Shown here piece after piece: positions 14,408-38,192 of a stretch of DNA of 64,000 nt; the stretch's first letter is position 1, and the number at the start of each line of letters is the position of its first letter. The stretch comes from Kocuria carniphila (lineage in GTDB: Bacteria > Actinomycetota > Actinomycetes > Actinomycetales > Micrococcaceae). The notes under the pieces were generated by a model. It was not told where the DNA came from. It searched no databases and worked only from the letters and a program-made list of their open reading frames with translations. Location of the stretch: contig NZ_NOIT01000019.1 in the NCBI RefSeq assembly GCF_004136555.1, forward strand, positions 1-64,000, in the 5' to 3' direction. Position numbers and translations under genes: made by a program.

Positions 14408-14496
14408 GAATTCCGCGACGGGCACTCCAAGTGGGAGGACCACCCTGAGGGCAGGACGGTCCCGGATGCACCGGGACGTTGTTGTCAACAGGGGGA

Positions 14497-15729
14497 ATGA
14501 TGAGTAGTGGACCGAGAATGGGAGAGCATCCGCCGGCGGGTCTCGCAGACGCGGTGGTCCGGCCCACGCGCCGGTTGGTGGGGATCGATGCGGCTCGAGG
14601 GCTGGCGCTGATCGGGCTGATGGCCATTCACCTGCTGCCGGCCTGGAACGAGGAGACCGGAGAGGCGAGCTGGTCGTGGCGGCTGTTCTCGGGGGACTCG
14701 GCGGCCCTGTTCGCCCTACTGGCTGGGGTGGGGTTGGCACTGACCTCCGGGGGGCGGCACCCGCACGAGGGCAGGACAATGACCGCTGACCGGATCGGCC
14801 TGGTGGTGCGCGCGATGCTGATCGCGATCGTGGGACTGTGGATCGGCACACTGATGTCGGAGGACCCGCCGGCCTACAACATCTTGATCTACTACGGGGT
14901 GTTCTTCCTGCTGGCGATTCCGTTCCTGCACGCAGGTCCGAAGTTCCTGTTCATCTCTGCGGCGATCTTCGGGGTGGTGTCCCCGCTGCTGATGCAGGGC
15001 CTCCAAGATGTGTTGCCCGAATTTGTCTCCTACAACCCCACGTTCACGGATCTGCTGACACAGCCCGGTGCCACGGCATCCCAGCTGCTGCTCACCGGGA
15101 CCTACCCGGCCCTGCCGTACATGACCTATCTGCTGGTGGGGCTGGGGCTGGGGCGGTTGAACCTGCGCAGGACGGAGGTTCAAGCTCGACTGGTCGTGGT
15201 GGGAGTGGGGCTGGCGATCTTCGCCCGGGTCACCTCCTATGTCCTGCTCTACGCCTTCGGCGGCTACCAGCAGTTGTTGGATGCCTCCTCGATGGGCGAG
15301 CACGAGCTGGATGATGTGCTGGTTTGGGGGCCGGATTCCTTGCCTACGGACACCGCGTGGTGGCTGGCGATCGCCACCCCGCACACCAACACCCCGCTGG
15401 CGATCGCGGCCAGTCTGGGGGTGGGCCTGGCGGTGTTGGGAGTCTTCCTGCTCATCGGCCCGAAGATCGGGAAATGGTTGCTGCCGCTGTCGGCGATGGG
15501 CGTGATGACCTTGACCCTCTACACCGCCCATCTGGTGGCGCTGTCCTTCGAGATCCACTACGAGCTGCCCTACCTGTGGTTCATGGTCCACCTGGCGGTC
15601 GCGGCGCTGTTCGCGGTGGCCTGGCATCGGGGCCTGGGACAAGGGCCGCTGGAGAAGGTGGTCAGCACCAGTGTGAAAGGCACCCGCCGGCTGGTGCTGG
15701 GCGGGCCGGCCAAGAACGGCCACGGATAG
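14497..15729 (+). CDS. HGSNAT/DUF418-like membrane acyltransferase (paralog 1)
   Basis: Polytopic membrane protein of about 410 residues. The N-terminal motif RLVGIDAARGLALIGLMAIH and the following GDSAALFALLAGVGLA are those of the heparan-alpha-glucosaminide N-acetyltransferase/DUF1624-DUF418 (YeiB-like) group, with about ten hydrophobic helices. It may acylate a cell-envelope sugar; the substrate is unknown. A closely related gene lies at 38193-39425, and both are beside a CopRS pair and a CopR-like box, so envelope modification may be part of the copper response. The start is uncertain: ATGs at 14497 and 14500 follow a GGGGG run. It converges on copS1. Confidence 0.82.
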   Translation: MMSSGPRMGEHPPAGLADAVVRPTRRLVGIDAARGLALIGLMAIHLLPAWNEETGEASWSWRLFSGDSAALFALLAGVGLALTSGGRHPHEGRTMTADRIGLVVRAMLIAIVGLWIGTLMSEDPPAYNILIYYGVFFLLAIPFLHAGPKFLFISAAIFGVVSPLLMQGLQDVLPEFVSYNPTFTDLLTQPGATASQLLLTGTYPALPYMTYLLVGLGLGRLNLRRTEVQARLVVVGVGLAIFARVTSYVLLYAFGGYQQLLDASSMGEHELDDVLVWGPDSLPTDTAWWLAIATPHTNTPLAIAASLGVGLAVLGVFLLIGPKIGKWLLPLSAMGVMTLTLYTAHLVALSFEIHYELPYLWFMVHLAVAALFAVAWHRGLGQGPLEKVVSTSVKGTRRLVLGGPAKNGHG

Positions 15730-15806: not shown

Positions 15807-16945
15807 TCAGTCCGTGGGCGTGTGGTGGGGCAAGCGGATCCGGAAGCTGGTCCCGCGCCCGGGGCCCTCACTGGTGGCCTCCAGGGACCCACCCTGGGCC
15901 TCAACCAGCGACTTGCTGATGGCCAGCCCCAAGCCAGAGCCTCCGCGGTGAGCTTCCCGGCCGGTGTTGGCGCGGTAGAAGCGCTCGAACACGTGCGGGA
16001 GATGCTCCTCACTGATGCCTTCCCCGGTATCGGTGACGGTGACAGTGACCGCCTCCGGAGCGTAGTCGGTGTGCACGGTGACGGCGCCTCCGGGCGGGGT
16101 GTGGCGCAGGGCGTTCTCCAGCAGGTTGCCCAGCACTTGTCCCATCCGCTCCCGATCAACCAGCACCGGTGTGACCTCCATGCCGGTGCTGATGGAGGTC
16201 ACCGAGATGTCCTGGGCGGCGGCGTCTTGTTGGACGGCCGCGACCGCCTGGGCTGCCAGCCGGCTGGGGTCTTGGGGGGTCAGTTGCAGGTGGGTCATAC
16301 CTTCCTCAGCGGCGGTGAGCTGGCGGATGTCGCGGGCCAGTCGCTCCAGCCGGGTGATCTGGGCGTAGAGGATGCTGGTGGTCCGTTCATCCCACTGGAC
16401 CACTCCGTCTTCGATGCCCTCCAGGTGTCCTTTGAGACTGGCCAGGGGGGTGCGCATCTCGTGGGCCAGATCGGCCAGCATCTGACGCCGGGTGGTGTCC
16501 ACGGCGTCGAGCTTGGCGGCCATGTCGTTGAAGGAGGAGGCCAGGGAGTCGAACTCCGGGCCCAGTCCGGTGGAGGTGACACGCACGTCGTAGTTGCCCG
16601 CGGCCACCTCGCCGGCGGCGGCGCTGAAGGAGGCCAGGGACCGCCCGATGGTGCGGTAGAGGTAGAAGGTGAGCATCCCGGCGAGGTAGAGCGCCGGGAG
16701 CCCTCCGATGGTCAGGGCGGTGAGACTCACCGAGCGGAAGGCGTCCTCCAGGTGCACCAGCCCGAGGGCCTCATCGGCGTGTCCGGTCTCGACGAGCTCG
16801 TGGTGGAACATCCTCGGTCCGACCAGGACCGCGGTGATCACCACGATGATCAGCCCGATGGCCAGCACCGCGGTCTGGGCCAGCATCAATCGCACCGTCA
16901 GCGGGCTCCAGGACCAGCGGTGGGTGCGCTCGGAGACGGTGGCGC

Positions 16946-16949
<4 letters not shown>
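15807..16949 (-). CDS. CopS-like sensor histidine kinase (copy 1)
   Basis: Membrane histidine kinase of 380 residues, the partner of the adjacent response regulator. Two transmembrane helices (about residues 20-42 and 77-97) enclose a short outer loop with clustered histidines (MFHHELVETGHADE, GLVHLE), a plausible Cu(I) sensor. A HAMP linker follows; the phospho-accepting H-box is LADLAHEMRTPLASL, then the N-box NLLENALRHTPPGG, DTGEGI and GSGLGLAI of the ATP-binding domain. Its ATG overlaps the regulator stop by 4 bp. A second kinase of identical length is at 33699-34841 with a similar loop. The copper specificity is inferred from context. Confidence 0.9.
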
Positions 16950-17668
<719 letters not shown>

Positions 17669-20815: not shown

Positions 20816-21321
20816 CACCGGCAGAATTCGGCGATGTGCACGAGGGCGCCGACCAGATCGATCAGCGGCACGCAGTGGACAGTAGCCCATCCATAACGAA
20901 AGTGTCACGTTTAGATCACAACCCGGTTTCTTCCCTCGGTCGGGGCTGAGAAGCCGGGCTCCTGGGCCCGGGAAGGCGCGTTCCGGAAGAGATAGGTTCG
21001 TCGCCCAGCTGAACTCGTCACGCAGCTATTGGCGGATTAGGGCCGGTCTGACTGGGCAAAATGGCATCGTGGCGCGCATTTCGCTGGACACAGTCGACGA
21101 CGGCAAGAGACTTGGGACTACGCGTAGTCTCCAGTGTTTCATGGGCAAACACCAAGGCTTCGTGAGGGAACTTTCGAGGTGGCTCACAGTTTGGAAAGGT
21201 CTCGGGGCGCCATTTCGAGATGCACGACGGGATTTCTTCACGGAATCTCTATATTCGGCCCGCTGCATCGATGCAAAAAACCAGTCGATGGGATGCAGTT
21301 GCGCACCGCTGAGGTGTTCAT

Positions 21322-21343
21322 CTTCATCAAATCTTCAAGATTT
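21322..21343 (-). promoter_or_regulatory. CopR-like tandem box c
   Basis: CTTCATCAAAT followed by CTTCAAGATTT: on the minus strand two TGAAG half-sites at 11-bp spacing. It lies 98 bp upstream of the copper storage gene. The surrounding 20900-21440 stretch contains an open frame but no recognisable protein. Confidence 0.7.
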
Positions 21344-21440
21344 TGGGTCGCGTCACATGGAAAAGGCAGTCTACTGTCGATGGCATGGCGGGCTGGCTCC
21401 GGCCGGTTCGTCTCCTGTTGAACCGACGAAGGAGCAAGCC

Positions 21441-21851
21441 ATGACCCATCACGTGAGCGCGATGCTGGAGACCTACCCGAAGGACCTCGGTGGGGTGGAC
21501 AAGGAGAAGCTGGCCGCCTGTATCGAGGCGTGTTTCGAGTGCGCCCAGACCTGCACCGCCTGCGCTGATGCCTGCCTGTCCGAGGACATGGTCGCGGAGC
21601 TGACCAAGTGCATCCGCACCAACCTGGACTGCGCGGACCTGTGCGAGGCCACCGGGCGAGTGCTCTCACGTCACACCGGCTACGACGCGAACATCACCTT
21701 GGATGCGATCAAGGCCTGCCAGATGGCCTGCAAGGCGTGCGCCGATGAGTGCGAGCAGCACGCGGACATGCACGAGCACTGCCGGATCTGTGCCGAGGCC
21801 TGCCGGCGTTGTGAGGCGGCTTGCGCCGAGCTGGTCGCCTCCCTGGGCTGA
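21441..21851 (+). CDS. Four-helix bundle cytosolic copper storage protein (Csp3-like)
   Basis: Cys-rich protein of 136 residues with 18 cysteines arranged as CxxxC and CxxC repeats along predicted helices (ACIEACFECAQTCTACADAC; DCADLC; ACQMACKACADEC; CRICAEACRRCEAAC). This is the pattern of four-helix bundle copper storage proteins, in which Cys line the core and bind many Cu(I) ions. There is no signal peptide, matching the cytosolic Csp3 subtype. The frame is open from 21069, but GAAGGAG sits 7 bp before the ATG at 21441 and the upstream translation is unrelated. CopR-like box c is 98 bp upstream, so copper induction is expected. Confidence 0.93.
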   Translation: MTHHVSAMLETYPKDLGGVDKEKLAACIEACFECAQTCTACADACLSEDMVAELTKCIRTNLDCADLCEATGRVLSRHTGYDANITLDAIKACQMACKACADECEQHADMHEHCRICAEACRRCEAACAELVASLG

Positions 21852-22030
21852 GCAGAACCTCCCGCTGACCCATCATCCGGGCGGCGGGGGCGGTGAGAAG
21901 GCCCGTGGCCGGCTGGGATCGGCGCTACGGGTGGATCCCGGACCTCTAGGGGTCAGGGCACCGCCATGACGCACCTGCCGCCCGGGTGATGCACCTGATG
22001 CACGAGGAAGTCACCAGAGGAACGAGGACA

Positions 22031-22540
22031 ATGACAACGAACGCGAGTGCTCGCAACCAGCGCCACGAAGACAAGGCCGGCCACCACGGCACCTCGAATC
22101 GGATGTACTGGATCTTCGCGGCCATCCTGCTGGTCAACCTCGGGCTGATGTGGGTGTTGACGATGTCGATGATCCGCACCTGGGACCACTTCTACTTCAA
22201 TCCCAGCAACCTCTACATGGCGTTCATCATGGTCACCGCGATGGCCATACTCATGGTCGTGGGCATGTGGTCGATGTTCCAGAACACCAAGCTCAACATC
22301 GCCCTGCTCATCGGCTTCATCGCCTTGTTCGTCGCGGCGCTGCTCTTCGGGCGCGCCGAGGTCGGAGTGGGCAACGAGGGATTCTTGAAGTCGATGATCC
22401 CGCACCACTCCCGGGCCATCCTGGTCTGCCAGGAATCGAACATCACCGACCCCGAGATCCAAGACCTGTGCGCCACCATCGTGGAGACCCAGCAGGAGGA
22501 GATCGCCCAGATGCAAGACATCCTCACACGCTACGAATGA
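22031..22540 (+). CDS. DUF305-like protein with three transmembrane helices
   Basis: Membrane protein of 169 residues. Three hydrophobic helices (YWIFAAILLVNLGLMWVL; LYMAFIMVTAMAILMVVGMW; IALLIGFIALFVAALLF) precede a DUF305 half-domain with SMIPHHSRAILVCQES and an acidic tail (QQEEIAQMQDIL). The DUF305 part carries a single His-His motif rather than the usual two. Helices 1 and 2 are rich in Met, which may matter for copper. It lies between the copper storage gene and another DUF305 gene. The ATG at 22031 is chosen over upstream in-frame ATGs from 21986 because AGAGG is 10 bp before it. Confidence 0.85.
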   Translation: MTTNASARNQRHEDKAGHHGTSNRMYWIFAAILLVNLGLMWVLTMSMIRTWDHFYFNPSNLYMAFIMVTAMAILMVVGMWSMFQNTKLNIALLIGFIALFVAALLFGRAEVGVGNEGFLKSMIPHHSRAILVCQESNITDPEIQDLCATIVETQQEEIAQMQDILTRYE

Positions 22541-22819: not shown

Positions 22820-23512
22820 ATGCTTCCCACCCTCACCCGCGGCCGCCGTATCGCCGCAGCCGCATCCAGCCTCACCCTCGCTGCCACCTTGCTGGGCGGA
22901 GCAACCGCCCCGGTCTTCGCTCACGGAGAGGCCACCCCCGTCTCCTCCCACTCCCAAGCGGAAATGCTGCAGCCGGACCCGACGTCGCCGACGGCCTACG
23001 AGTTCGGCGAGACCCTGGCCACCCTGGAGGGCGAAGAGCTGGAAATCACGTTCCTGGCCGAGATCATCCCGCACCACCGCGCCGCCATCGAGATGTCCCA
23101 GCTGGAGCTTGAGCGGGGGGTCAGCCCGGACATCCGCACGCACGCGGAGAACATCATCGCCAACCAGGAGCACCAGATCGACCAGTTCACCCGGTGGCTG
23201 GAGGAGTGGTACGGGCTGACCCCGGAAGAGGCCATGGCTCAGGCCCCGGCAGAAGCCCAGGAGGAGATGAAGATCCTGGAGGAGGAGACCCAGATGATGA
23301 TCGAGGAACTCTCGGCCGTGGAGGCCGGTGAGGACTTCGACGTCGCCTTCGTGCAAAAGATGATTCCGCACCACCAGAGCGGGATCATCGAGTTCCTGGA
23401 GCCGCAGTCCCGTGCCGTGCACCCGCAGCTGCGAGTGGCGGCCACCGCGGGGATCACCACCCAACAGGCCCAGGTCGCGGACTTCCGCACTTGGCTCGCC
23501 GGCCGCGGCTGA
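22820..23512 (+). CDS. Secreted DUF305 protein
   Basis: Secreted protein of 230 residues. The signal peptide covers residues 1-34 and ends AHGEA. Two DUF305 repeats follow: AEIIPHHRAAIEMSQLEL near residue 83 and QKMIPHHQSGIIEFLE near residue 183, joined by a Glu-rich helix (EEMKILEEETQMMIEELSAVE). No lipobox, so it is exported free or anchored otherwise. It stands between the membrane DUF305 gene and the complex I-like cluster and ends at a very strong terminator (23533). GAAAGAGAG precedes the ATG. The 22541-22819 gap shows nothing recognisable. Confidence 0.9.
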   Translation: MLPTLTRGRRIAAAASSLTLAATLLGGATAPVFAHGEATPVSSHSQAEMLQPDPTSPTAYEFGETLATLEGEELEITFLAEIIPHHRAAIEMSQLELERGVSPDIRTHAENIIANQEHQIDQFTRWLEEWYGLTPEEAMAQAPAEAQEEMKILEEETQMMIEELSAVEAGEDFDVAFVQKMIPHHQSGIIEFLEPQSRAVHPQLRVAATAGITTQQAQVADFRTWLAGRG

Positions 23513-23532: not shown

Positions 23533-23572
23533 GATCGGTGGGGGCCACCTGTTAGGGTGGCCCCCACCGATC
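23533..23572 (+). terminator. Strong hairpin terminator before the nuo cluster
   Basis: Arms GATCGGTGGGGGCCACC and GGTGGCCCCCACCGATC are perfect 17-bp complements around a 6-nt loop, 20 bp after the DUF305 stop. There is no long U-tract, as is common in GC-rich actinobacteria. It insulates the nuo-like cluster, whose first gene starts 45 bp later. Confidence 0.75.
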
Positions 23573-23617: not shown

Positions 23618-23962
23618 GTGTACTCCGGGATCGTGGCCATGGCCCTGGTGGCGCTGTCGGTCGTCGTTCTCCTCTATGCACTCCACCGCGCTGCCGTCAT
23701 CACCGCCGAGCCGTTGACGGTTCTGCCCGCCCAATCCGGGTGGATGCCCCAGGAGCACGCGCTGTCCCGATTCCACGCCCGCTGGTACCTCGCCTCAATC
23801 GTGTTCCTGGCCTTCGACGTCGAGATGCTCTTCATGTATCCGTGGGCGGTGGTCGTGATCGAGAAGGGGATCTCCGCGGTGGTGGAGATGTTCCTGTTCC
23901 TCGGGGCCCTGCTCGTCGCCGTGGCCTGGGCCTGGCGCGAAGGAGCCTTCCGATGGGCCTGA
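23618..23962 (+). CDS. nuoA: NuoA-like membrane subunit
   Basis: Complex I subunit A homologue, 114 residues, three predicted helices. The conserved ARWYLASIVFLAFDVEMLFMYPWAV near residues 53-77 includes the FDVE acid pair and the PWA signature that pack against NuoJ/NuoH. The conserved Cys of the first loop in canonical NuoA (YECG) is not seen; the equivalent region reads QSGWMPQEHA. It starts with GTG after AAGGGGAG and heads an eight-gene run with overlapping ends. It has no N- or Q-module partners in the window. Confidence 0.9.
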   Translation: MYSGIVAMALVALSVVVLLYALHRAAVITAEPLTVLPAQSGWMPQEHALSRFHARWYLASIVFLAFDVEMLFMYPWAVVVIEKGISAVVEMFLFLGALLVAVAWAWREGAFRWA

Positions 23963-25104
23963 GCGGTGCTCTCGCCCGGCTCGCGGTCCGGGCCACCCGG
24001 GTCCTCGTCGTCGAGGTCCCGGGGCACTGGGCGACCCGGATGGAGGTCGAGCACCAGCTGCTCCGCCGTGGGTGGCGACCGGCGTGGACACCAGCGGATG
24101 CGGACGTGCTCGCAGTGTGCGGTGCACCCGGCCCCGAACTCTCCGAGCTGGTGGACCGGCTCTGGGAGCAGATGCCCGGTCCCCGCGTCCGCGCCGACAT
24201 CACCTCGCCCGGAACTGTAGGTTCCGCCCTCGACGCCGCCGCAGCCCTCCTTCTCGACACCCCGCACCACCGGACGGACGCCCAGGAGCGGGCGCAGGAA
24301 CCCGAGATCCCCGAGGACGCGGATCATGGGGGTCACGGGGGCATGGACCACGGCGAGATGGACCACGGCGAGATGGACCACGGCGGGCACGGCGGGCACG
24401 GTGGGATGGACATGGCTCCGGAGGGGATCCCGCTGGCCGAGGGCGGGGAGGACCGTGACGGACTGGAGATGGACGTCCTCCATCTGCCGCTGGGTCCCGT
24501 GCTGCCGTTCTGGCCGGCCGGGCTCGTGCTGCGCTGCTCGTTGCAGGGGGATGTCGTGGTCAACGCCGAAGCCTCCATGGTGGACGGCAGGAACGACGAC
24601 GAGGACGACGGCGCCGGAGCAGCCGGACCAAGTGCCGGTCCCGCGCCGGCGGCGGTGGTGCGGTGCGACCAGGTCATGGCGTTGCTGGCTCTCGCGGGGG
24701 TCGAGGACGCGGCGGCCTGCGCCCGCCGCGCCCGGGACGCCCTGCTGTGCGGTGACGAGGACGCCGCCCGGGACGCCGTCGAGCGGCTGGATCGGACGGT
24801 CCGGCGGTCCTGGCTGCTCCGGTCGTCGCTGCGGGGCGTCCTGCTGCTGGACCGGGCCGGCCTCGAGCGCCACGGGCTGCCGGGACACTGCCGCGGGGAC
24901 GCCCACGACCGGCTGCTGTCCCGCGTGGAACGGATCCGGGCCGAGGCCGGTGGCACGGAGCCCACCCCGGCGGAGGACGGTGGGGTGCCCTGGGCGGTGG
25001 TGCCGGACCTGGTGACCGGGCTGGAGCTGGGCTCCGTGCGGTTGGCCGTGGCGAGCCTGGATCTCGATCCGCATCCTGCCGTCCAGGCGGTGGGGCATGG
25101 CTGA
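23953..25104 (+). CDS. Degenerate NuoB/NuoD-like protein with His/Met-rich insert
   Basis: A 383-residue soluble protein in the place of nuoB-C-D. Residues 14-80 resemble NuoB (ADADVLAVCGAPGPELSELV, LWEQMPGPRV) but lack the cysteines for cluster N2. Residues 124-155 are a metal-binding-like tract of HGG, MDHGEMDHGE and HGGHGGMDM units. Residues 170-212 and 285-383 resemble NuoD fragments (GPVLPFWPAGLVLRCSLQGDVVV; LRGVLLLDRAGLERHGLPG; VPDLVTGLELGSVRLAVASLD) without the quinone-site His/Tyr context. It overlaps nuoA by 10 bp and nuoH by 8 bp. Homology is judged by eye and needs a structure prediction. It may be a connector that binds copper instead of carrying electrons. Confidence 0.65.
   Translation: MGLSGALARLAVRATRVLVVEVPGHWATRMEVEHQLLRRGWRPAWTPADADVLAVCGAPGPELSELVDRLWEQMPGPRVRADITSPGTVGSALDAAAALLLDTPHHRTDAQERAQEPEIPEDADHGGHGGMDHGEMDHGEMDHGGHGGHGGMDMAPEGIPLAEGGEDRDGLEMDVLHLPLGPVLPFWPAGLVLRCSLQGDVVVNAEASMVDGRNDDEDDGAGAAGPSAGPAPAAVVRCDQVMALLALAGVEDAAACARRARDALLCGDEDAARDAVERLDRTVRRSWLLRSSLRGVLLLDRAGLERHGLPGHCRGDAHDRLLSRVERIRAEAGGTEPTPAEDGGVPWAVVPDLVTGLELGSVRLAVASLDLDPHPAVQAVGHG
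24343..24405 (+). repeat. Tandem coding repeat, His/Met-rich
   Basis: ATGGACCACGGCGAG occurs twice in a row and a third time ending GGCGGG, followed by two 9-bp CACGG(C/T)GGG units. It encodes the MDHGE/HGG metal-binding-like stretch of the NuoB/NuoD-like protein and could vary in copy number by slippage. Confidence 0.8.
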
Positions 25105-26032
25105 GAGCGTGGTGACGACCGTCCCCGGAGGATGGGCCGTGCTGGCGGGGATCCTCCTGTGCGGCTTGGCCTTCTTCGCCGTGGCGCTGGATGCGGCGCT
25201 CTCGGCCCGGGCGCAGGGCACCGGCGGCGGATGGGGCGCGCCGCTGGGCCGTGCGGCGAGGCTGCTGCGGCAGCGGCGCCGGAGCACCGTGGCCGCGGAC
25301 ACCCTGCTGTGGCGGATCGGTGGCGCGGGCATGCTGGTCGGGGCGTTCCTGATGATCGCGGTGATCCCGCTGGGGGAGTGGACGCTGGCGGACCTGGACG
25401 TCGGTGTCGTGTGGTTCAACACCGTGGACGTCATGGTCTGGGCGCTGGTCTGGTTGGCCGGCTGGGGTGCGAACTCCGCCCACGGCCTGGTGGGCGGCTA
25501 CCGCTTCCTGGCGCACGGGCTGGCCTACGAGCTGCCGTTGATGTTCGCGCTGGTGGCCCCGGCGATCGCCGCCGGCAGCCTGGCCGTGGGCGATGTCGCG
25601 GCGGCCCAGGACGGCGTGTGGTTCGTGGTCTGGATGCCGGTGGCGTTCCTCGTGTTCCTCATCGGCGTGACCGGCTTCTCCGTGTGGGGCCCGTTCGCCC
25701 CGGCGCTGGCCGCCGACATCGGCGGCGGCGTGCTGGCCGAGCTCTCGGGGGTCGACCGCCTCGTCCTCCAGGCCGGGCGCTACCTGTTCCTGACCGCCGG
25801 AGCCGCCTTCTCGGTGCCGCTGTTCCTCGGGGGCGGGGCCGGGCCGGTCCTGCCCGGCTGGGCGTGGGTCCTGGTGAAGACCGTGGCCGTGCTCGCGGTG
25901 CTCGTGTGGTTGCGGCGGAAGCTTCCGCTGCTGCGCCCGGACCGGTTCATGGAGATCGGGTGGATGGTCCTGCTCCCGGCCGCCGTGCTCCAGGACCTGG
26001 TCGTGTCCCTCGTCGTCGTCTGGAAGGGCTGA
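25097..26032 (+). CDS. nuoH: NuoH-like membrane subunit with altered quinone loop
   Basis: Complex I subunit H homologue (complex I subunit 1 family), 311 residues with about eight helices. Canonical NuoH has an AExxRxPFDxxExxSELV loop that forms the quinone chamber; here the aligned stretch near residues 190-225 reads TGFSVWGPFAPALAADIGGG then VLAELSGVDRLVL, so most of the conserved Glu/Arg/Asp are missing while the GPF and the later E(L)SG remain. The fold is probably kept but quinone binding is doubtful. Start overlaps the previous gene by 8 bp. RFMEIGWMVLLP near the C-terminus matches the family. Confidence 0.85.
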   Translation: MAESVVTTVPGGWAVLAGILLCGLAFFAVALDAALSARAQGTGGGWGAPLGRAARLLRQRRRSTVAADTLLWRIGGAGMLVGAFLMIAVIPLGEWTLADLDVGVVWFNTVDVMVWALVWLAGWGANSAHGLVGGYRFLAHGLAYELPLMFALVAPAIAAGSLAVGDVAAAQDGVWFVVWMPVAFLVFLIGVTGFSVWGPFAPALAADIGGGVLAELSGVDRLVLQAGRYLFLTAGAAFSVPLFLGGGAGPVLPGWAWVLVKTVAVLAVLVWLRRKLPLLRPDRFMEIGWMVLLPAAVLQDLVVSLVVVWKG

Positions 26033-26035
26033 GCC

Positions 26036-26599
26036 GTGCTGGTCGGAATCGTATTCTGGGTGCTCGCCGTGGTGGCCGTGACCGCGGGGGCAGCTGTGTT
26101 CGTGGTGGACTCCATGGCCCGGGCCACCTATGCCCTGGCGCTGTCGTTCATCGCGGTGGGGGTGCAGATTCTGCTGCTGGGCCAGAGCTACCTCGGGATC
26201 ATCACGATCCTCATGATGGTGATGGAGATGGCGGTGATGGCGGTCTACATGGTGATGTTCATGGGCATGAACCCGGCGCTGATGCCCATGGACATGACCC
26301 ACGGGAAGAAGACCGCGATCGTCGCCTCGGCCGGGGTCTTCGTGCTGCTGGCCGCCGGTGCGCTGCTCGTGCCGTGGCCGCAGCGGCGCGGTGTCCCGCC
26401 CGAGGACCTCACGCACGCGCTGGGCCTGGAGATCATGGGCGAGAAGATGCTGGTCATGGCCGTGGTGGGCCCTGTCATGGTGGCCACCATCGTGGCCGGG
26501 GTGGTCCTGGCCGCCCACCGCACCCGCTACGACCGGTTCGGCGACGACCTGCGCCGCCGCCCGGCCGATGATCCCCAGCCGGGGGGTGTGGGCCGATGA
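26036..26599 (+). CDS. nuoJ: NuoJ-like membrane subunit, Met-rich
   Basis: Complex I subunit J homologue, 187 residues, five predicted helices, GTG start 3 bp after nuoH. The family's third helix normally reads like QVLVYAGAIMVLFLFVVM; here it is ITILMMVMEMAVMAVYMVMF continuing GMNPALMPMDMTHGKK, with 12 methionines in about 35 residues plus Glu and Asp. Such Met clusters recall Cu(I) transport proteins. The rest (AVTAGAAVFVVDSMARATYALALSFIAVG, EIMGEKMLVMAVVGPVMVATIVAGVVLA) is NuoJ-like. It overlaps nuoK by 4 bp (ATGA). Confidence 0.85.
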   Translation: MLVGIVFWVLAVVAVTAGAAVFVVDSMARATYALALSFIAVGVQILLLGQSYLGIITILMMVMEMAVMAVYMVMFMGMNPALMPMDMTHGKKTAIVASAGVFVLLAAGALLVPWPQRRGVPPEDLTHALGLEIMGEKMLVMAVVGPVMVATIVAGVVLAAHRTRYDRFGDDLRRRPADDPQPGGVGR

Positions 26600-26898
26600 C
26601 CCTGGAAGCGGTGCTGGTCGTGGCCGCCGCGCTGTTCGCGGTGGGGCTCTACGGCGCCCTGTCCCAGCAGGTGGTGGTGATGGTGATGATGGGCCTGGAG
26701 CTGATGATCAACGGGGTGCTCCTGGCCGCCGCGGGCTTCTGGTGGTTCCTCGCCCCGGACCCCTCCGGGCAGGTGCTGCTGCTGGTGGTCCTGGCGGCCA
26801 TGACCGTGGAGATGGCCATGGGCTTCGCCGTGGCCACGCTGCTGCACCGCAGGCGCCAGACCGACATGACGGACATGGCCGAGGAGCTCTCCCGATGA
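26596..26898 (+). CDS. nuoK: NuoK-like membrane subunit
   Basis: Complex I subunit K homologue (MrpC-like), 100 residues, three helices. Both proton-path glutamates of the family are visible: in MGLELMINGVLL (near residue 36) and in AAMTVEMAMGFAVATLL (near residue 75). LFAVGLYGALSQQVVVMVMM is the typical first half. Length is normal. The ATG overlaps the nuoJ stop and its own stop overlaps nuoL. Conservation of these acids suggests that the ion-translocating function of the arm is retained. Confidence 0.92.
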   Translation: MTLEAVLVVAAALFAVGLYGALSQQVVVMVMMGLELMINGVLLAAAGFWWFLAPDPSGQVLLLVVLAAMTVEMAMGFAVATLLHRRRQTDMTDMAEELSR

Positions 26899-28805
26899 CC
26901 GCGGCCCAGGCCGTCCTGCTGGCCGTGGTGGTGCTCCCGGCCACCGTGGGGGCGGTGCTCGCCCTCACCCGGGCGGAGCGTGCCGCGGCCCCGGTCGCGG
27001 TGGCGACCGCCGCGGTGACCACGGTGCTCGCGGCGGTCGCCGCCCTGGCGCGGCCCGCCCTGGCGTATCCGTTCGTGGCCGGTGCCGACTTCGCGCTGGA
27101 GGCCGATGCCCTCGCGGCACTGACCCTCCCGATGGTCGCGGGAGTGACGCTCCTGGTGCTGGTCTTCGCGGCCGGCAGCATCCGGGCGGCACGGCCGCGC
27201 TTCCACGGGCTGATGCTGCTCTTCGCCGCCGCGGCCCTGACCACGGTCACGGCCGCGAGCCTGCCGGCGCTGCTGTTCGCCTGGGAGCTGATGGGCGCCA
27301 CGTCCTACGCCCTGATCGGGTTCTGGTGGCGGGACGCCGACCGCGTCTCGGCCGGACTCACCGCCTTCATCACGACCCGCACCGCGGACTTGGGACTCTA
27401 CGTCGCCGCCGGCGCCGCCCTGGCCGGCGGCGCCGGGATGGCCCTGTCCGCCCTGCCGGCCGCCGAGAGCCCGTGGCGGCACGTGATCGCGGCCGGGATC
27501 CTCGTGGCGGCCCTAGGCAAGGCCGCGCAGCTGCCGTTCTCCTTCTGGCTCTCCGGGGCGATGAAGGGCCCCAGCCCGGTGAGCGCGCTGCTGCACTCCG
27601 CGGCCATGGTCGCCATGGGCGGCTACCTCCTGCTCCGGGTGGAGCCGCTGCTGGCCTCCACCGGGTGGGCGGGCCCGGCCGCGGCGTGGATCGGGGCGGT
27701 GACCGCGGTGCTGATGGGGTTCGTGGCGCTGGCCCAGCGGGAGCTCAAGCAGCTGCTGGCGGCGTCCACGGTGGCGCAGCTGGGCTTCGTCGTGCTGGCC
27801 GCCGGGGTGGGCGCGGTCAGCGGCGGCGCGGCCCACCTGGTGGCCCACGCCTCCACCAAGGCGCTGCTGTTCCTGGCCGCCGGGGCGTGGCTGACGGCCC
27901 TGGGCACCGAGGAGCTCGCGGCACTGCGCGGGGCCGGCCGCCGGTGGCGGGTCGTGGGCGTGAGCGCGACCGTGGGGGCGCTGGCCCTGGCCGGGATCGC
28001 CCCACTGTCCCTGTGGGCCACCAAGGACGCGGTGCTGGCCGCCGCCCTCGAGGCCTCGGCGTGGCTCTACGCCGCCGGGCTCGTGGCGGCGGCCCTGTCG
28101 GCGGCCTACGCGGGCAAGGTCCTGTGGACGATCTGGCACCGAGGTGCTCGCGCCGAGGCCGCGGAAGGGGGCACCGGGAAGGTGGGGCCGCTGGAGCAGG
28201 CCCCGCTTCTCGTGCTCGCCGCCGGCGCGGCCGTACTGGGGATACTGGCCCTGCCCCCGGTCAGCCGGAGCCTCGCCGGGGCCCTGGGCGGGCACGGCGC
28301 GGTGGCGCCCGTCGAGCTGCTGGTCTCGGCCGCGATCGCCCTGGTCGTCCTGCTGCTGATGCTGCGCGTGCGCGTCCCCGAGCCGGGATGGGCCGTGCGG
28401 TGGCTAGGGTTGGAGGCCGCCGCGCACGCCGTCGTCGTCCGCCCCTCACTGGGCCTGGCGCACGCCCTGGCCCGGTTCGACGACCTCGTCCTGGACCGGG
28501 CCGTGACCGCCGCCGCCGGGGCCGTCCCGGTGCTGGCACGGGCCGCGGCCCGGTTCGACGACCGGGCCCTCGACACCGGGGTCGAGGCCACCGCGCACGC
28601 CGCCGACGCGACCGGCCGGGGTGCGGCCCGGCTCGACGACGACGTCGTGGACGGCGCCGTCGAGGGCCTCGCCGGCCGGGTCCGCCGGCTCGGGCAGCTG
28701 GCCCGGGCCCCGCAGACCGGGGCAGTCCACCAGTACTTCCTCCAGGCCGTCGCGGTGCTCGCCGTCGGCGTCGTGGCCTGGTCCGTCTACGCCGTGATGG
28801 GATGA
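26895..28805 (+). CDS. nuoL: NuoL-like antiporter subunit
   Basis: Complex I antiporter-like subunit L, 636 residues, about 16 helices. The key residues are present: Glu in LFAWELMGATSY, Lys in ALGKAAQLPFSFWL, and the PSPVSALLHSAAMV half-helix with its His. The following AMKG replaces the usual AMEG. The C-terminal 130 residues hold RFDDLVLDRAV and RFDDRALDTGV repeats and end near QTGAVHQYFLQAVAV, the region that forms the long lateral helix and final membrane helix of NuoL. The ATG at 26895 overlaps nuoK by 4 bp; an upstream extension of the frame to 26358 is antisense-like noise inside nuoJ/K. Confidence 0.93.
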   Translation: MTAAQAVLLAVVVLPATVGAVLALTRAERAAAPVAVATAAVTTVLAAVAALARPALAYPFVAGADFALEADALAALTLPMVAGVTLLVLVFAAGSIRAARPRFHGLMLLFAAAALTTVTAASLPALLFAWELMGATSYALIGFWWRDADRVSAGLTAFITTRTADLGLYVAAGAALAGGAGMALSALPAAESPWRHVIAAGILVAALGKAAQLPFSFWLSGAMKGPSPVSALLHSAAMVAMGGYLLLRVEPLLASTGWAGPAAAWIGAVTAVLMGFVALAQRELKQLLAASTVAQLGFVVLAAGVGAVSGGAAHLVAHASTKALLFLAAGAWLTALGTEELAALRGAGRRWRVVGVSATVGALALAGIAPLSLWATKDAVLAAALEASAWLYAAGLVAAALSAAYAGKVLWTIWHRGARAEAAEGGTGKVGPLEQAPLLVLAAGAAVLGILALPPVSRSLAGALGGHGAVAPVELLVSAAIALVVLLLMLRVRVPEPGWAVRWLGLEAAAHAVVVRPSLGLAHALARFDDLVLDRAVTAAAGAVPVLARAAARFDDRALDTGVEATAHAADATGRGAARLDDDVVDGAVEGLAGRVRRLGQLARAPQTGAVHQYFLQAVAVLAVGVVAWSVYAVMG

Positions 28806-30298
28806 ACATGCTGAGCCTGATCGTCTTCCTGCCCCTGGCCGCCGCCGCCGTCCTGGCCGTGGTCCCCTCGATCGGGGCCGCGGCCGCGCGGTGGGCGTGG
28901 GTGGCGGTGAGCGTCGTGGAGCTGCTGCTCGTGGGCGTGCTGTGGGCCGGGTACGAGGACCCGGGACCCAACGGGCTGGCCTTCGAGGAGCAGGTGCCGT
29001 GGATCCCCGGGGTGAACAGCAGCTACCACGTGGGCGTGGACGGGCTCTCCCTGCCGCTGCTGGCCATGACGGTCGTCGTGTTCCTGGCCTGTGCCCTCTA
29101 TGCCGTTCGGGACACGGACCGGCCCCGCGTGCAGGCGGCGCTGTTCCTGTTCCTGCAGGGCGTGAGCCTGGGGGTGTTCGTGGCGGCCGACCTCATCCTG
29201 TTCTTCGTCTTCTTCGACCTGTCCATCGTGGGCATGTACTTCGTGATCGCCGGGTGGGGCCACGGGGACGCGGCTCGGTCGGCGCTGAAGTTCTTCCTCT
29301 ACACCTTCCTGGGCTCCCTGGCCCTGCTGCTGGGCTTCATCGGCCTCTACGTGGCCGCCGCACCCCACACCTTCGACATCCCCGAGCTCGTCGCCACAGC
29401 CCCGCTCCAGGGGGACGGACTCACCGGGGGGCTCGTGCTCGCGGCGATCCTGGTGGGGCTGGCCGTGAAGACCCCCACCGTCCCCTTCCACACGTGGCTC
29501 CCCCCGGCCCACACGGACGCCCCGGCCACCGGCTCAGCCGTGCTGGCGGGGGTGCTGCTGAAGATGGGCACCTACGGGTTCGTGCGCATCGCCATGCCGA
29601 TCCTGCCTGAAGCGTGGCGGGCCTGGGCCTGGGTGATCGTGGCCGTCGGCATCGTCTCGGTGCTCTACGGGGCGTTCGTGGCCCTGGCCCAGACGGACCT
29701 CAAACGGATGATCGCCTACACCTCCGTCAACCACATGGGCTACATCGTCCTGGCCCTGGGCGCGGTCGGCGTCCTGGCTCAGGACGCCGCCCAGGCCCGG
29801 TCCGTGGCGGTCACCGGGGCGGTGGTGCAGATGGTCAGCCACGGATTGATCACCGCCGCGCTGTTCCTGCTGGCCGGGGTGATGCAGGACCGGGCCGGGA
29901 CCTACGACATGGGCTCCTACGGCGGGCTGGCCGCCCCGGCACCGCGCTACGCGGCACTGTTCGCGGCCGGGGCCTTCGCCTCCTTGGGCCTGCCCGGGTT
30001 CTCCGGGTTCATCGCCGAATTCCAGATCTTCGCCGGCAGCATCGCGGTCGCCCCCGTCACCGCGATCGCCCTGCCGGGCATCCTGGTCACCGCCGCGCTG
30101 TTCCTGCGGGCCCTGCAGCGGGTCTTCACCGGCCCAGCGGCCGGGCACACCCCCGGGTTCGCAGATCTCCAGGGGCGGGAGCTGTGGTCGGTGGGTCCCC
30201 TGTTGGCCCTGTCCTTGCTCATCGGTGTGCTGCCCCGGGTGCTGCTCGAGGTGGTCGAGCCGGCCTCGAGTGCCCTCGTGAGCCTGGTGGGACGGTAG
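28802..30298 (+). CDS. nuoM: NuoM-like antiporter subunit
   Basis: Complex I antiporter-like subunit M, 498 residues, 14 predicted helices. Channel lysines are kept: GLAVKTPTVPFHTWLPPAH and GVLLKMGTYGFVRIAMPI; TDLKRMIAYTSVNHMGYIVLA is the conserved central segment. The helix-5 acid, Glu in nearly all NuoM proteins, is Asp here (FFVFFDLSIVGMYFVIAGWG). It overlaps nuoL by 4 bp. It should move protons if the arm is driven; the driver is not evident because the peripheral arm is missing. Confidence 0.93.
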   Translation: MNMLSLIVFLPLAAAAVLAVVPSIGAAAARWAWVAVSVVELLLVGVLWAGYEDPGPNGLAFEEQVPWIPGVNSSYHVGVDGLSLPLLAMTVVVFLACALYAVRDTDRPRVQAALFLFLQGVSLGVFVAADLILFFVFFDLSIVGMYFVIAGWGHGDAARSALKFFLYTFLGSLALLLGFIGLYVAAAPHTFDIPELVATAPLQGDGLTGGLVLAAILVGLAVKTPTVPFHTWLPPAHTDAPATGSAVLAGVLLKMGTYGFVRIAMPILPEAWRAWAWVIVAVGIVSVLYGAFVALAQTDLKRMIAYTSVNHMGYIVLALGAVGVLAQDAAQARSVAVTGAVVQMVSHGLITAALFLLAGVMQDRAGTYDMGSYGGLAAPAPRYAALFAAGAFASLGLPGFSGFIAEFQIFAGSIAVAPVTAIALPGILVTAALFLRALQRVFTGPAAGHTPGFADLQGRELWSVGPLLALSLLIGVLPRVLLEVVEPASSALVSLVGR

Positions 30299-30313
30299 CC
30301 GGTGGAGGCCTCG

Positions 30314-31735
30314 ATGCAGATGCGGCCCATGCTGCTACTGCCGGAAATCGTCGTCTTCATCGGTGGGTTGGTGGTGCTGCTGGGCGGATCGTTCCTGCCC
30401 CGCGACCGGCAATGGATCGCCCGCGTCGTCGCCGTCCTAGCCCTGCTGGGCGCCGCGGTCGCCGCCGTGGTTGCGATGACCGGGCCCGAACAGAGCGCGT
30501 TCTCCGGGACGTTCGCCGTGGACACCGCCACCGGTGCCGCCCGGGTCATCGCAGCGCTGACCACCCTGCTGGTGCTGGGGGTGGCCTCCGGGGAGATCGC
30601 CGGGTCCCCGCGGGAGTCGGACACGTACGCGCTGCTGCTGCTGGCCACCACCGGGGTGATGGTCTTGGCCGGGGCCACCGACCTGCTCGTGCTGATCGTG
30701 GGGTTCCTGCTGGCCAGCATCCCCCTGTACGGGATCGTCGGCCTCACCGGCGGCCGCGCCGGGGCCGAGGCCGCCATGAAGACCTACCTCATGGGGGCGC
30801 TGTCCGGGATCCTGCTCATGCTCGGGGTCACCGTGCTCTACGCCCTGGCCGGCGGCACCGACTACGCCCTGCTCCGGGACGCGCTGCCCGCCGCCCCGGC
30901 AGCAGCCGTGGGCGCGGGCGTGCTGGGCGTGCTCGCCGGGCTGCTCTTCAAGGCCGGCGGGGTGCCCTTCCACTTCTGGGTGCCCGACGCCGCCCAGGGC
31001 ACCGGGGCCACCGCCGCCACGTTCCTCACCACCGTCCCCAAGGTGGGGGCGCTGGTCGCCGTGTACCGGCTCGTGGCCACGGTCTCCGCCGGGGACGGCT
31101 CCTGGTTGCTCGTCGCGGCGCTGCTGGCCACCGCCTCGATGTTCCTGGGCAACCTCGCCGCCTACTGGCAGACCGACCCCCGCCGGCTGCTGGGCTGGTC
31201 GACGGTGGCCCAGGTCGGGTTCCTGCTCGTGCCCGTGGCCGCGGCCGGGCGCAGCGACCTGGCCCTGCCCTCGCTGCTGTTCTACCTCGCCGCCTACGCG
31301 CTCACCAACGTCGCCGCCTTCGCCGTCACCGCCGCCCTGCCCGAGCACCGGAAACTGACCGACTACCGGGGCCTGGCCCGCGCCCGCCCCGGCCTGGGGC
31401 TGGTCCTGCTCGTGGCGCTGCTGGGACTGGTGGGGACCCCGCCGCTGGCCGTGTTCGTCGGCAAGCTCACCACCGCCACCGCCGCCTGGGACGGCGGGCA
31501 CGGCTGGCTCGCCCTGGTGGTGGTGCTCAACAGCGTCCTCAGCCTCTTCTACTACCTGCGCTGGTTCGCCCCCGTATTCGCCCCACCCGCCCAGCAGGCC
31601 GCGGGATTCCCCGGAGGCGGCGGGGCGGCCGCCTGGCCGGCCGCCACCGCCGGGGTCGCCGCGACCGCGAGCCTGGGAATCGGCGTCCTGGCCGGTGTCC
31701 TGTGGGCCGCCCTCGAGAGCCCCGGGACCATGTAG
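30314..31735 (+). CDS. nuoN: NuoN-like antiporter subunit lacking the helix-5 glutamate
   Basis: Complex I antiporter-like subunit N, 473 residues from the ATG at 30314 (GGAGG 5 bp upstream; a GTG at 30302 would add 4). Lysines are present in LLFKAGGVPFHFWVPDAAQG and in VPKVGALVAVYR. The usual helix-5 GLELxSLPLY reads GFLLASIPLYGIVGL, so the conserved Glu is Leu, which in canonical enzymes would impair the channel. It is the last gene of the cluster; the next gene converges on it after 55 bp. Confidence 0.9.
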   Translation: MQMRPMLLLPEIVVFIGGLVVLLGGSFLPRDRQWIARVVAVLALLGAAVAAVVAMTGPEQSAFSGTFAVDTATGAARVIAALTTLLVLGVASGEIAGSPRESDTYALLLLATTGVMVLAGATDLLVLIVGFLLASIPLYGIVGLTGGRAGAEAAMKTYLMGALSGILLMLGVTVLYALAGGTDYALLRDALPAAPAAAVGAGVLGVLAGLLFKAGGVPFHFWVPDAAQGTGATAATFLTTVPKVGALVAVYRLVATVSAGDGSWLLVAALLATASMFLGNLAAYWQTDPRRLLGWSTVAQVGFLLVPVAAAGRSDLALPSLLFYLAAYALTNVAAFAVTAALPEHRKLTDYRGLARARPGLGLVLLVALLGLVGTPPLAVFVGKLTTATAAWDGGHGWLALVVVLNSVLSLFYYLRWFAPVFAPPAQQAAGFPGGGGAAAWPAATAGVAATASLGIGVLAGVLWAALESPGTM

Positions 31736-32547: not shown

Positions 32548-33210
32548 TCAGGACTGCTCGGGCAACTCCTGGAGCATGGTCTCCATCTCCTGAATCTCGG
32601 CCTCCTGATCCTCGATGACCTGCTGGGCCAGTGCCACGGCCTGCGGGTTCTCGCCATTGTCGACCTCGTCGCGGGCCATGTCCACGGCGCCTTCGTGGTG
32701 GACGGTCATCTGCTCCAGGTACAGTCGAGCGGCCTCGACACCCTGGGCCTCCTCGAGGGCGGCCATGTCCTCCTCGCTCATCATCCCGTCCATCCCGGAC
32801 CCGTGGTCCATGCCTTCCATGCCTCCAGACTCGCTCATGGGTTCCTCGTCCCAGGCGGTGAGCATGGCATTCATGCGCTCGATTTCCGGGCCCTGGGCTG
32901 CGACCACGCCCTGGGCGAAATCGCGCACGTTGTCCGGGATGTTGTCCTTGGCCAGCAGCATCTCGCTCATCTCCACGGCCTGCTGGTGGTGGGGGATCAT
33001 CATTTGGGCGAACATCACGTCCGCGTCGTTGTGCTCAGCGGCAATCGCCTCACCGGAAGCCGAAGTGGTGCTCGTGGCCTGGGCGCTGGAGGTGGCCGGG
33101 GCGGCGGTTTCCGGGGCGGTCTCGGTGCTCTCTTCGGCACCGGTGCCGCAGCCGACCAAGGCCAGGGCGGTGGTCAGGGCGAGGGTGGTCAGGGTGGTGG
33201 AACGCTTCAC
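32548..33210 (-). CDS. DUF305 lipoprotein, Met-rich linker
   Basis: Lipoprotein of 220 residues with the lipobox ALVGC at residues 17-21. A Ser/Thr/Ala-rich spacer follows, then two DUF305 motifs, MMIPHHQQAVEMSEMLLA near residue 95 and MTVHHEGAVDMARDE near residue 168. Between them lies a Met/Gly/Asp tract (GGMEGMDHGSGMDGMM) of the type found in copper-binding proteins. It lies 52 bp downstream of copZ2 on the same strand, so it probably shares the CsoR-like operator at 33659. Extracytoplasmic copper binding is inferred. Confidence 0.9.
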   Translation of the reverse strand: MKRSTTLTTLALTTALALVGCGTGAEESTETAPETAAPATSSAQATSTTSASGEAIAAEHNDADVMFAQMMIPHHQQAVEMSEMLLAKDNIPDNVRDFAQGVVAAQGPEIERMNAMLTAWDEEPMSESGGMEGMDHGSGMDGMMSEEDMAALEEAQGVEAARLYLEQMTVHHEGAVDMARDEVDNGENPQAVALAQQVIEDQEAEIQEMETMLQELPEQS

Positions 33211-38098: not shown

Positions 38099-38192
38099 CC
38101 GGCACCATCCACACCCTTGCCGCGGAGCAACAGCGGATTCCGCCACGGACCGGGCGGCCTTGCAGACGACGAGGACAGTGACGAGGAGAGCG

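Follow-up and report, generated by a model that had tools for sequence, protein, structure and literature searches.

In their accessible parts, PMC3314556, PMC6002675 and PMC6676996 treat an actinobacterial operon of complex I membrane-subunit genes as a partial NADH dehydrogenase 1 (NDH-1) and connect it with marine or osmotic adaptation. The text of PMC6676996 available to us has a 'hypothetical protein' following nuoA, with no homologues in UniProt or PDB, and mentions that the operon also occurs in non-marine strains, one of them from copper-rich mine fluid; the accessible part of PMC6002675 lists Kocuria marina SO9-6, whose source is given as 'copper miner', among the carriers. Here we analyzed such an operon in Kocuria carniphila. 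The window is a stretch of 64,000 nucleotides, positions 1 to 64,000 of the forward strand of contig NZ_NOIT01000019.1 (assembly GCF_004136555.1). The gene following nuoA, which we call BDx, encodes a 383-residue protein at 23953-25104 on the plus strand.

What is new is that copper genes, operator-like boxes, a methionine-rich NuoJ and heavy-metal-binding domains are tied to the operon known as 'partial NDH-1'. It is very probable that the operon has a copper-linked function of some kind, and the complex probably handles or moves copper rather than electrons. Our literature search, with subscription papers and preprints outside its reach, found no paper tying this operon to copper.

The cap protein and its redox ligands

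The gene order is nuoA-BDx-nuoH-nuoJ-nuoK-nuoL-nuoM-nuoN, all on the plus strand and ending at 31735, and all seven Nuo subunits were named by Pfam. None of nuoC, nuoE, nuoF, nuoG and nuoI is present within the operon. BDx lies between nuoA (23618-23962; complex I chain 3 type, PF00507, E 1.4e-21) and nuoH (25097-26032; PF00146, E 2e-42), and its ends overlap the 3′ end of the former and the start of the latter. An earlier note, made from the DNA alone, had described BDx as NuoB-like and NuoD-like segments devoid of the cysteines of cluster N2, with a His/Met-rich tract between them at the junction where electrons normally pass to quinone.

The BDx relatives were compared as follows. Among 104 proteins, L040 was left out owing to a frame change in the repeat, L080 as split, and L119 and L105 as unsure in their starts. 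The later set also dispensed with L079 (cut), with L021, L025, L027, L030 and L038 (same places as earlier loci) and with duplicates. This left 92 relatives, or 93 sequences with the window protein; 64 of the 92 plus the window protein form a 65-row alignment.

The N-terminal part of BDx (residues 1-117, 23953-24303) is NuoB-like, and the C-terminal part (residues 164-377, 24442-25083) is a shortened NuoD fold joined to it in one chain. A profile of the 65 sequences run against PDB sequences placed NuoB-type chains at the top over residues 35-82 (NDUFS7, 6g2j_B, E 1.8e-6; Thermus 2fug_6, E 3.1e-6; MbhJ, E 0.0059), and the same search (hmmsearch) reached NuoD/NDUFS2 weakly over residues 293-342, at E 0.12-0.23. 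With hhalign the N-terminal part matched NuoB at P 1.7e-8; for the C-terminal part, canonical NuoD came out as a weak match, with a probability of 6% and P 0.006. A Pfam scan of BDx gave no family up to E 1 and an NCBIfam scan a weak NuoB alone (best E 0.0047), while the NuoB model TIGR01957 recovers three BDx proteins at E 1.4e-4 to 4.2e-4.

The AlphaFold2 model made from the alignment has a predicted local distance difference test score (pLDDT) of 86.2 and a predicted template modelling score of 0.83, with the tract disordered. In the 50 Foldseek rows shown for this model every chain came from complex I, NDH, membrane-bound hydrogenase (MBH), membrane-bound sulphane reductase (MBS) or formate hydrogenlyase entries, none of them below E 0.001 (best E 1.0e-3); the subunit identity of the matched chains is in part our assumption. 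VIA-align 2 matched residues 164-377 to the NuoD chain of mycobacterial complex I (8e9h_D) with Z 15.7, 206 residues aligned and 3.5 A; its rows mainly span BDx residues 145-378 and the NuoB part is outside that comparison. PF00346 (NuoD) exceeded its cut-off in 7/8 and 4/5 of the distant relatives scanned, themselves found by the BDx profile, and because of these intermediate sequences we regard the NuoD homology as settled. For the window branch by itself the direct sequence evidence is weak, and its NuoD assignment depends on the predicted fold and the intermediates. A chance resemblance was ruled out by the PDB profile search, hhalign, the fold alignment and PF00346 in the distant relatives. 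The homology put forward in the earlier note was borne out by both profile and fold matches.

The loss of the N2 cysteines proved to be general in the family. Neither CCxxE nor PGCPP occurs in any of the 92 relatives, and a CC pair is absent from all 65 aligned rows. Other cysteines, outside the N2 pattern, are found at C56 (52/65 rows), C195 (47/65) and C238 (39/65). The NuoD-like part of the 65 rows has no conserved cysteine pairs of the NiFe-type CxxC kind; the distant forms were read by eye. The quinone-ligand motif of NuoD (GPQHPSTHG) is likewise gone: GPQHP is missing in 92/92 relatives, which have GPVLPxWPAG and similar sequences there instead. In NuoH of the window branch the PFDxPEAE loop is lost, E216 being replaced by Ala in 73/80 rows while E157 is kept in 80/80. 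In the seven loci L226-L232 the NuoH loop still resembles the canonical one, reading PPFDLPTA(P)GELAGG or a variant close to it. Row counts for membrane subunits include the window sequence.

These residues bear on the possibility that copper is a redox partner, with Cu(I) of the tract reducing quinone at the old cavity, or quinol reducing Cu(II), accompanied by proton pumping. NuoH is still encoded and its loop in L226-L232 is close to canonical, which is in its favour; the complete loss of GPQHP, together with the NuoH loop lost and E216 replaced in the window branch, speaks against it, and we hold it to be quite improbable.

The rest of the genome was searched for complex I as well. None of the eight Kocuria genomes with BDx, this one included, has a match to PF00346. 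TIGR01957 had no match in this genome, and across the eight BDx-bearing Kocuria genomes its one weak match was BDx itself. PF01512 (NuoF) was not found in this genome (9/14 control genomes were positive); C, E, G and I were searched at the operon only. NuoM, at E 1e-40 or better, was present in exactly the same 8/27 Kocuria genomes as BDx. That the operon is an extra piece of a full complex I encoded elsewhere was rejected for this genome, where NuoB, NuoD and NuoF were not found. Among 25 tested genomes with BDx, 15 carry NuoD, and those members do have complex I parts elsewhere.

The transfer of electrons to quinone at this junction, the remaining part of the earlier description, finds no support in an operon without NuoC, NuoE, NuoF, NuoG and NuoI whose cap has neither N2 ligands nor the quinone-ligand motif of NuoD, in a genome searched as above. 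In the model the tract is a disordered linker, and there is nothing to show that it occupies the former N2/quinone position in the folded complex. The operon product is not a complex I: three defining features were tested and none was found. Judged from its sequences, it is a redox-dead member of the complex-I superfamily.

Copper genes, membrane subunits and putative metal-binding stretches

The window is a copper island. A CopA-like heavy-metal P-type ATPase with an HMA domain is encoded at 10193-12523 (minus strand; Pfam) and a Csp-type copper storage protein at 21441-21851 (plus strand; TIGR04401, E 8.8e-11, under its cut-off, with the longer frame 21069-21848 as query). Three DUF305 proteins (PF03713) are encoded at 21986-22540 (plus strand, E 3.1e-10), 22820-23512 (plus strand, E 8.8e-31) and 32548-33210 (minus strand, E 8.5e-47), and a multicopper oxidase at 35706-37238 (plus strand; PF07731, PF07732, PF00394).

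Neighbours of 80 loci were clustered without preset families. The most recurrent were the heavy-metal P-type ATPase, multicopper oxidase, Csp and DUF305, followed by a CopZ-like protein, a response regulator, the F510_1955 protein, a kinase, a NlpC/P60-type protein (by reading), DUF1541 and a repressor of the CsoR/RicR type. Any of seven copper families was present in 50/80 loci versus 0/30 random 20-kb stretches (Fisher 1.5e-10); in this comparison the families were picked after they had recurred in the clustering, so that the choice was not blind, and related species are not independent. The random stretches came from 10 genomes, mostly of species other than those of the 80 loci, and one of them (L184) also carries a canonical nuo operon. 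CsoR/RicR repressors are treated in PMC10961391 and PMC6337107 and Csp proteins in PMC7558416, as far as their accessible parts go.

The palindrome TACCC-N5-GGGTA has 46 occurrences in 1483 kb of the loci and none in the 600 kb of random sequence, where 6 copies appear once one mismatch is allowed. Near these boxes are the starts of 15 CopZ-like, 11 CopA-like, 9 nuoA, 4 csoR and 4 DUF305 genes, in overlapping classes and at distances up to 450 bases. We take the palindrome to be a RicR/CsoR operator, and regard it as copper-type because it precedes copZ-, copA- and csoR-like genes. The accessible parts of PMC10961391, PMC6337107 and PMC8131098 do not write out the box sequence. In six loci (L052, L081, L090, L096, L098, L099) an exact box lies upstream of nuoA, no more than 200 bases from its estimated start; resampled sequence gave an expectation of 0.0 in 81 loci.

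The proton path of the membrane arm is largely kept. In NuoL (26895-28805; PF00361, E 3.3e-46) residues E144, D178, K229, H254, H338, K342 and K399 are present in 78/78 rows. In NuoM (28802-30298, start ATG 28802; TIGR01972 above cut-off, E 4.3e-144 with the query from 28805) K265, H322, H348 and E407 are kept in 76/76 and K234 in 75/76, and E144 appears as Asp in 74. NuoN (30302-31735; TIGR01770, E 1.1e-86, under its cut-off) has K247 and K395 in 76/76, and D79, E81 and E102 of NuoA (E. coli numbering) are kept in 81/81. NuoK (26596-26898; PF00420, E 1.1e-13) retains E36 in 80/80 rows and E72 in 79/80, and has 6 invariant methionines besides the start.

NuoJ (26036-26599; PF00499, E 5.3e-10; 18 Met in the window) is rich in methionine. 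Sixteen of its columns are Met in 80/80 rows, 12 of them in residues 60-87, and E64 and H89 are invariant as well. Residues 60-89 (26213-26302) correspond by alignment to the third transmembrane helix and the following loop. Eight family rows have 17-19 Met each versus 4-9 in eight canonical actinobacterial NuoJ proteins, in which the 12-Met pattern of residues 60-89 is not present. The core motif of NuoJ was found in 16/16 distant loci and, with a strict pattern, in 75/80 family rows, versus 0/728 open reading frames of eight canonical nuo loci. The position of E. coli Y59 is Met in the family. According to the part of PMC7419157 at our disposal, Y59 sits on a pi-bulge of the NuoJ helix, and its Mrp counterpart E706 is essential for activity. 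A single-sequence model of NuoJ was poor (pLDDT 58.7) and was not used.

The tract of BDx covers residues 124-155 (24322-24417), with 7 His and 5 Met. Tandem Repeats Finder lists a 15-bp unit of 2.9 copies with 100% matches at 24343-24385, encoding MDHGE units; the 9-bp repeat, two copies of CACGGCGGG followed by CACGGTGGG, can be recognized by eye but is not listed at score 50. The tract with its two DNA repeats stands as the earlier note described it, and it looks like a metal-binding type of sequence. In the chain it is a linker, predicted to be disordered, with pLDDT <50 over residues 138-153. In the 93 non-redundant sequences the stretch between the two conserved parts is 15-222 residues long (median 69), with 0-59 His (median 12) and a median of 5 Met (maximum 39). 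His makes up 17.8% of this stretch, compared with 2.4% and 3.0% of the parts on either side. Together with at least 4 His in 77/93 sequences, this makes the tract more than a chance feature. Unit types vary by lineage (MDHGE, HEGHGG, MDHSGMDHST and others). L022, L046 and L045 are almost identical outside the tract and have tracts of 88, 163 and 205 residues. A second BDx copy in genome G003 (L013) has a long MDHGE run. In K. marina SO9-6 (L040, G010:C9:92310-93781) the frame switches inside the repeat tract and the BDx halves lie in two frames, which may reflect misassembly of the repeats or a genuine change of frame.

Distant relatives have other modules of metal-binding type. We examined 16 such loci (L223-L232, L239-L244). 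At the NuoB/NuoD junction, nine of them carry heavy-metal-binding stretches of the copper-ATPase type, between one and three each. PF19335 was identified in all eight of the nine that were scanned (L226, L228-L232, L239, L244; by batch, 6/8 and 2/5 of the distant relatives scanned), and in L227 the domain was recognized by reading. PDB matches of L226 include the copper ATPases 8ovl (2e-6) and 3rfu (7.1e-5). The seven loci without a junction tract have 4-8 His within the last 22 residues of NuoJ (7/7), and the nine with the domain have none in that tail (9/9). In L240-L243 the His-rich NuoJ C-terminus accompanies a cap without a tract, and L240 has 8 consecutive His. Two BDx proteins, L012 (G053:C2) and L010 (G037:C1), have a His-rich C-terminal end (HGGHGG..., HEGHHRHEGH...), and that of L012 has no tract at the junction. 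By homology, the metal-type modules on the cap would face the cytoplasm.

The copper-gene neighbourhood, the copper-type boxes and the CopA-type domains at the junction of some distant relatives argue for metal binding by the tract, and we infer that it binds copper as Cu(I) or Cu(II). A different metal (Ag, Zn or Ni) is conceivable, with the copper genes as fellow travellers of metal islands. His-only tracts of the HEGHGG type could suit Zn or Ni; since the recurrent neighbours are of copper type (heavy-metal P-type ATPase, multicopper oxidase, Csp, RicR-like repressor), we rate this as very improbable. The tract could also serve as a cytoplasmic copper buffer or chaperone dock on a proton-handling complex, with no copper crossing the membrane. 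That the metal-binding stretch shifts between subunits, as the NuoJ His tails indicate, and can even be absent would agree with such a role. It leaves the 16 invariant Met columns of NuoJ unexplained, which are retained in tract-less rows and largely in the distant loci, and we consider a mere buffer or dock unlikely.

Several observations weigh against a copper transporter. Thirty of the 80 loci have none of the seven copper families, and just four of these have <3 kb beyond the operon. Among Kocuria genomes, the presence of the Csp gene is not clearly tied to that of the operon (6/8 genomes with the operon, 9/19 without). The window nuoA has no TACCC-N5-GGGTA box, and an inverted repeat lies there instead. 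In NuoN E133 and H305 are kept in 0/76 rows and K217 is replaced by E in 20/76; E108 of NuoM is variable. At most 1 His is found in 9/93 tracts, some members are without a tract, and in five tract-less loci of the named set for which flanks are available the other subunits are without a His tail too. In the 11/93 comparable tracts the changes among repeat units fall 121:163:150 on the three codon positions, with no excess at the third and no sign of selection on the units. No significant difference in the number of His per tract separates loci that have copper genes from loci that lack them (p 0.16). Finally, the Met-rich helices may be structural in origin.

An alternative is that the complex is a conventional pump or antiporter (Na+/H+ or H+) used under salt or pH stress, with the His tract a neutral slippage product. 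As far as their accessible parts go, PMC3314556, PMC6002675 and PMC6676996 read the operon so from gene distribution. Channel residues are kept, tract units change freely, and the tract is nearly or wholly absent in some members, including Salinispora L093. Against such a pump stand the copper neighbourhood with its boxes, the heavy-metal-binding domains at the junction and the Met-lined NuoJ, as well as the non-marine carriers noted in PMC6676996, and we regard it as fairly unlikely.

Our preferred reading, to which we give somewhat less than an even chance, is an H+-coupled Cu(I) transporter on a complex-I frame, most likely for efflux; copper binding, transport, direction and proton coupling are all inferred here. 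NuoB and NuoD would have merged into a single cap protein devoid of ligands for iron-sulphur clusters or quinone. Its metal-binding stretch, the His/Met tract or CopA-type domains, would capture cytoplasmic copper, and Cu(I) would then travel along a methionine-lined path in NuoJ and NuoK, close to the Na+ site of the related Mrp antiporter. Protons entering via NuoL, NuoM and NuoN would drive the movement, and its direction would be outward. More tentatively still, the complex-I frame might have found a third role in this operon, next to redox pumping and Na+/H+ exchange, namely Cu(I) transport driven by protons. The Met ladder of NuoJ/NuoK would be the path, loaded by interchangeable cytoplasmic metal-binding modules (the expanding His/Met tract, copper-ATPase-type domains or the NuoJ His tail).

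This proposal gives a testable function to an operon counted as an NADH dehydrogenase part or as a marine-adaptation pump, and an origin to its 'hypothetical protein'. Should it hold, the frame of complex I can be turned to a transition metal once its electron-carrying parts are gone, a point of direct relevance to the way in which the proton channels of L/M/N are coupled to work at the NuoH/J/K end. Kocuria, Nocardioides, environmental mycobacteria and others would then possess a new type of machine for bacterial copper handling.

Distribution and other features of the window

BDx was found in 12/59 relatives. In a class sample 42/394 genomes passed E 1e-3; 15 of the 42 matched just within residues 13-90, at 9e-5 to 9e-4, and 27 were counted as members. 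One further short match, in G085, falls in a canonical NuoB. The phylum sample gave 21/296 at E 1e-10, and a sample of the phylum of the Lysobacter genome gave 7/398 at E 1e-8, the centre included. From the named genome collection the best 80 of 156 relatives were kept. They belong to Kocuria, Dietzia, Janibacter, Arthrobacter, Brachybacterium, Nesterenkonia, Brevibacterium, Mycobacterium, Rhodococcus, Nocardioides, Micromonospora, Gordonia, Cryobacterium, Streptomyces, Salinispora, two Lysobacter and others. The operon occurs in some Pseudomonadota as well as in Actinomycetota of more than one class. No deviating gene order was seen as far as the available DNA reaches, named genes alone having been looked for.

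Two gammaproteobacterial records, Lysobacter maris (L036) and L. spongiicola (L037), contain an actinomycete-like copy of the operon, which was probably acquired by horizontal transfer. Contamination of these records was considered and provisionally set aside: L037 lies on an 895-kb contig beside other genes, in a genome that also has a separate NuoB-like match.

Some other features of the island and its relatives deserve mention. The inverted repeat at 23533-23572, between a DUF305 gene and nuoA, has by reading 17-base arms and a 6-base loop and is likely a terminator or operator. A putative sensor histidine kinase (15807-16970, minus strand, approximate start, by reading of the translation) adjoins an OmpR-type response regulator (16946-17668, minus strand; NCBIfam). 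The multicopper oxidase gene holds a 9-bp tandem repeat, GGCATGAAG, of 3.7 copies at 36345-36377. Genes with an HGSNAT_cat (acyltransferase-like) domain flank the operon on each side, at 14479-15729 and 38160-39425 (+), possibly as a duplication. The F510_1955 family 'glycosylhydrolase' (NCBIfam NF045728) stands beside the operon and copper genes in 14/80 loci, for example L060:7446-8321, and may be a copper-island protein.

Comparison with known systems

The 'Partial 2' NDH-1 operon nuoAHJKLMN of Salinispora, Kocuria and Streptomyces is the same operon, to judge from the available text of PMC3314556, PMC6002675 and PMC6676996. There, in contrast to our reading, it is taken for an NADH dehydrogenase part or a proton/sodium pump for salt; the eighth gene is omitted or called hypothetical, and in the portions seen the function of the operon is not tied to copper.

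With complex I the window operon shares the membrane subunits A, H, J, K, L, M and N, the NuoB/NuoD homology of its cap, most proton-path residues of L, M and K and part of those in N. It differs in having no C, E, F, G and I and in B and D being fused, shortened and without N2 and quinone ligands, and the Met-rich NuoJ, the insert of metal-binding type and the copper context are found on its side.

The closest matches of the NuoD-like part include chains of MBH and MBS: MbhL, which heads the PDB matches of the distant L226, and chain 6u8y_L of MBS. Both complexes retain metal or Fe-S cofactors and contain additional subunits, whereas no ligand motifs for such cofactors were seen in the BDx cap.

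The CopA-type heavy-metal-binding domain (PF19335; PDB 8ovl, 3rfu) occurs at the NuoB/NuoD junction of some distant relatives; Pfam did not find it in the window BDx, which has the His/Met tract in that place.

The Mrp Na+/H+ antiporter resembles our system in doing proton-driven work without redox and is not known to have a NuoB/NuoD cap. In the accessible part of PMC7419157, its Na+ path runs at the interface of MrpD, the NuoK-like MrpC and the NuoJ-like C-terminal helices of MrpA, so that counterparts of NuoJ and NuoK share in the cation path; Mrp is without NuoH, whereas the window operon has NuoH and NuoB/NuoD homologues, which sets it apart from the mrpA-G gene set. The key residues of Mrp at that place are carboxylates and not methionines.

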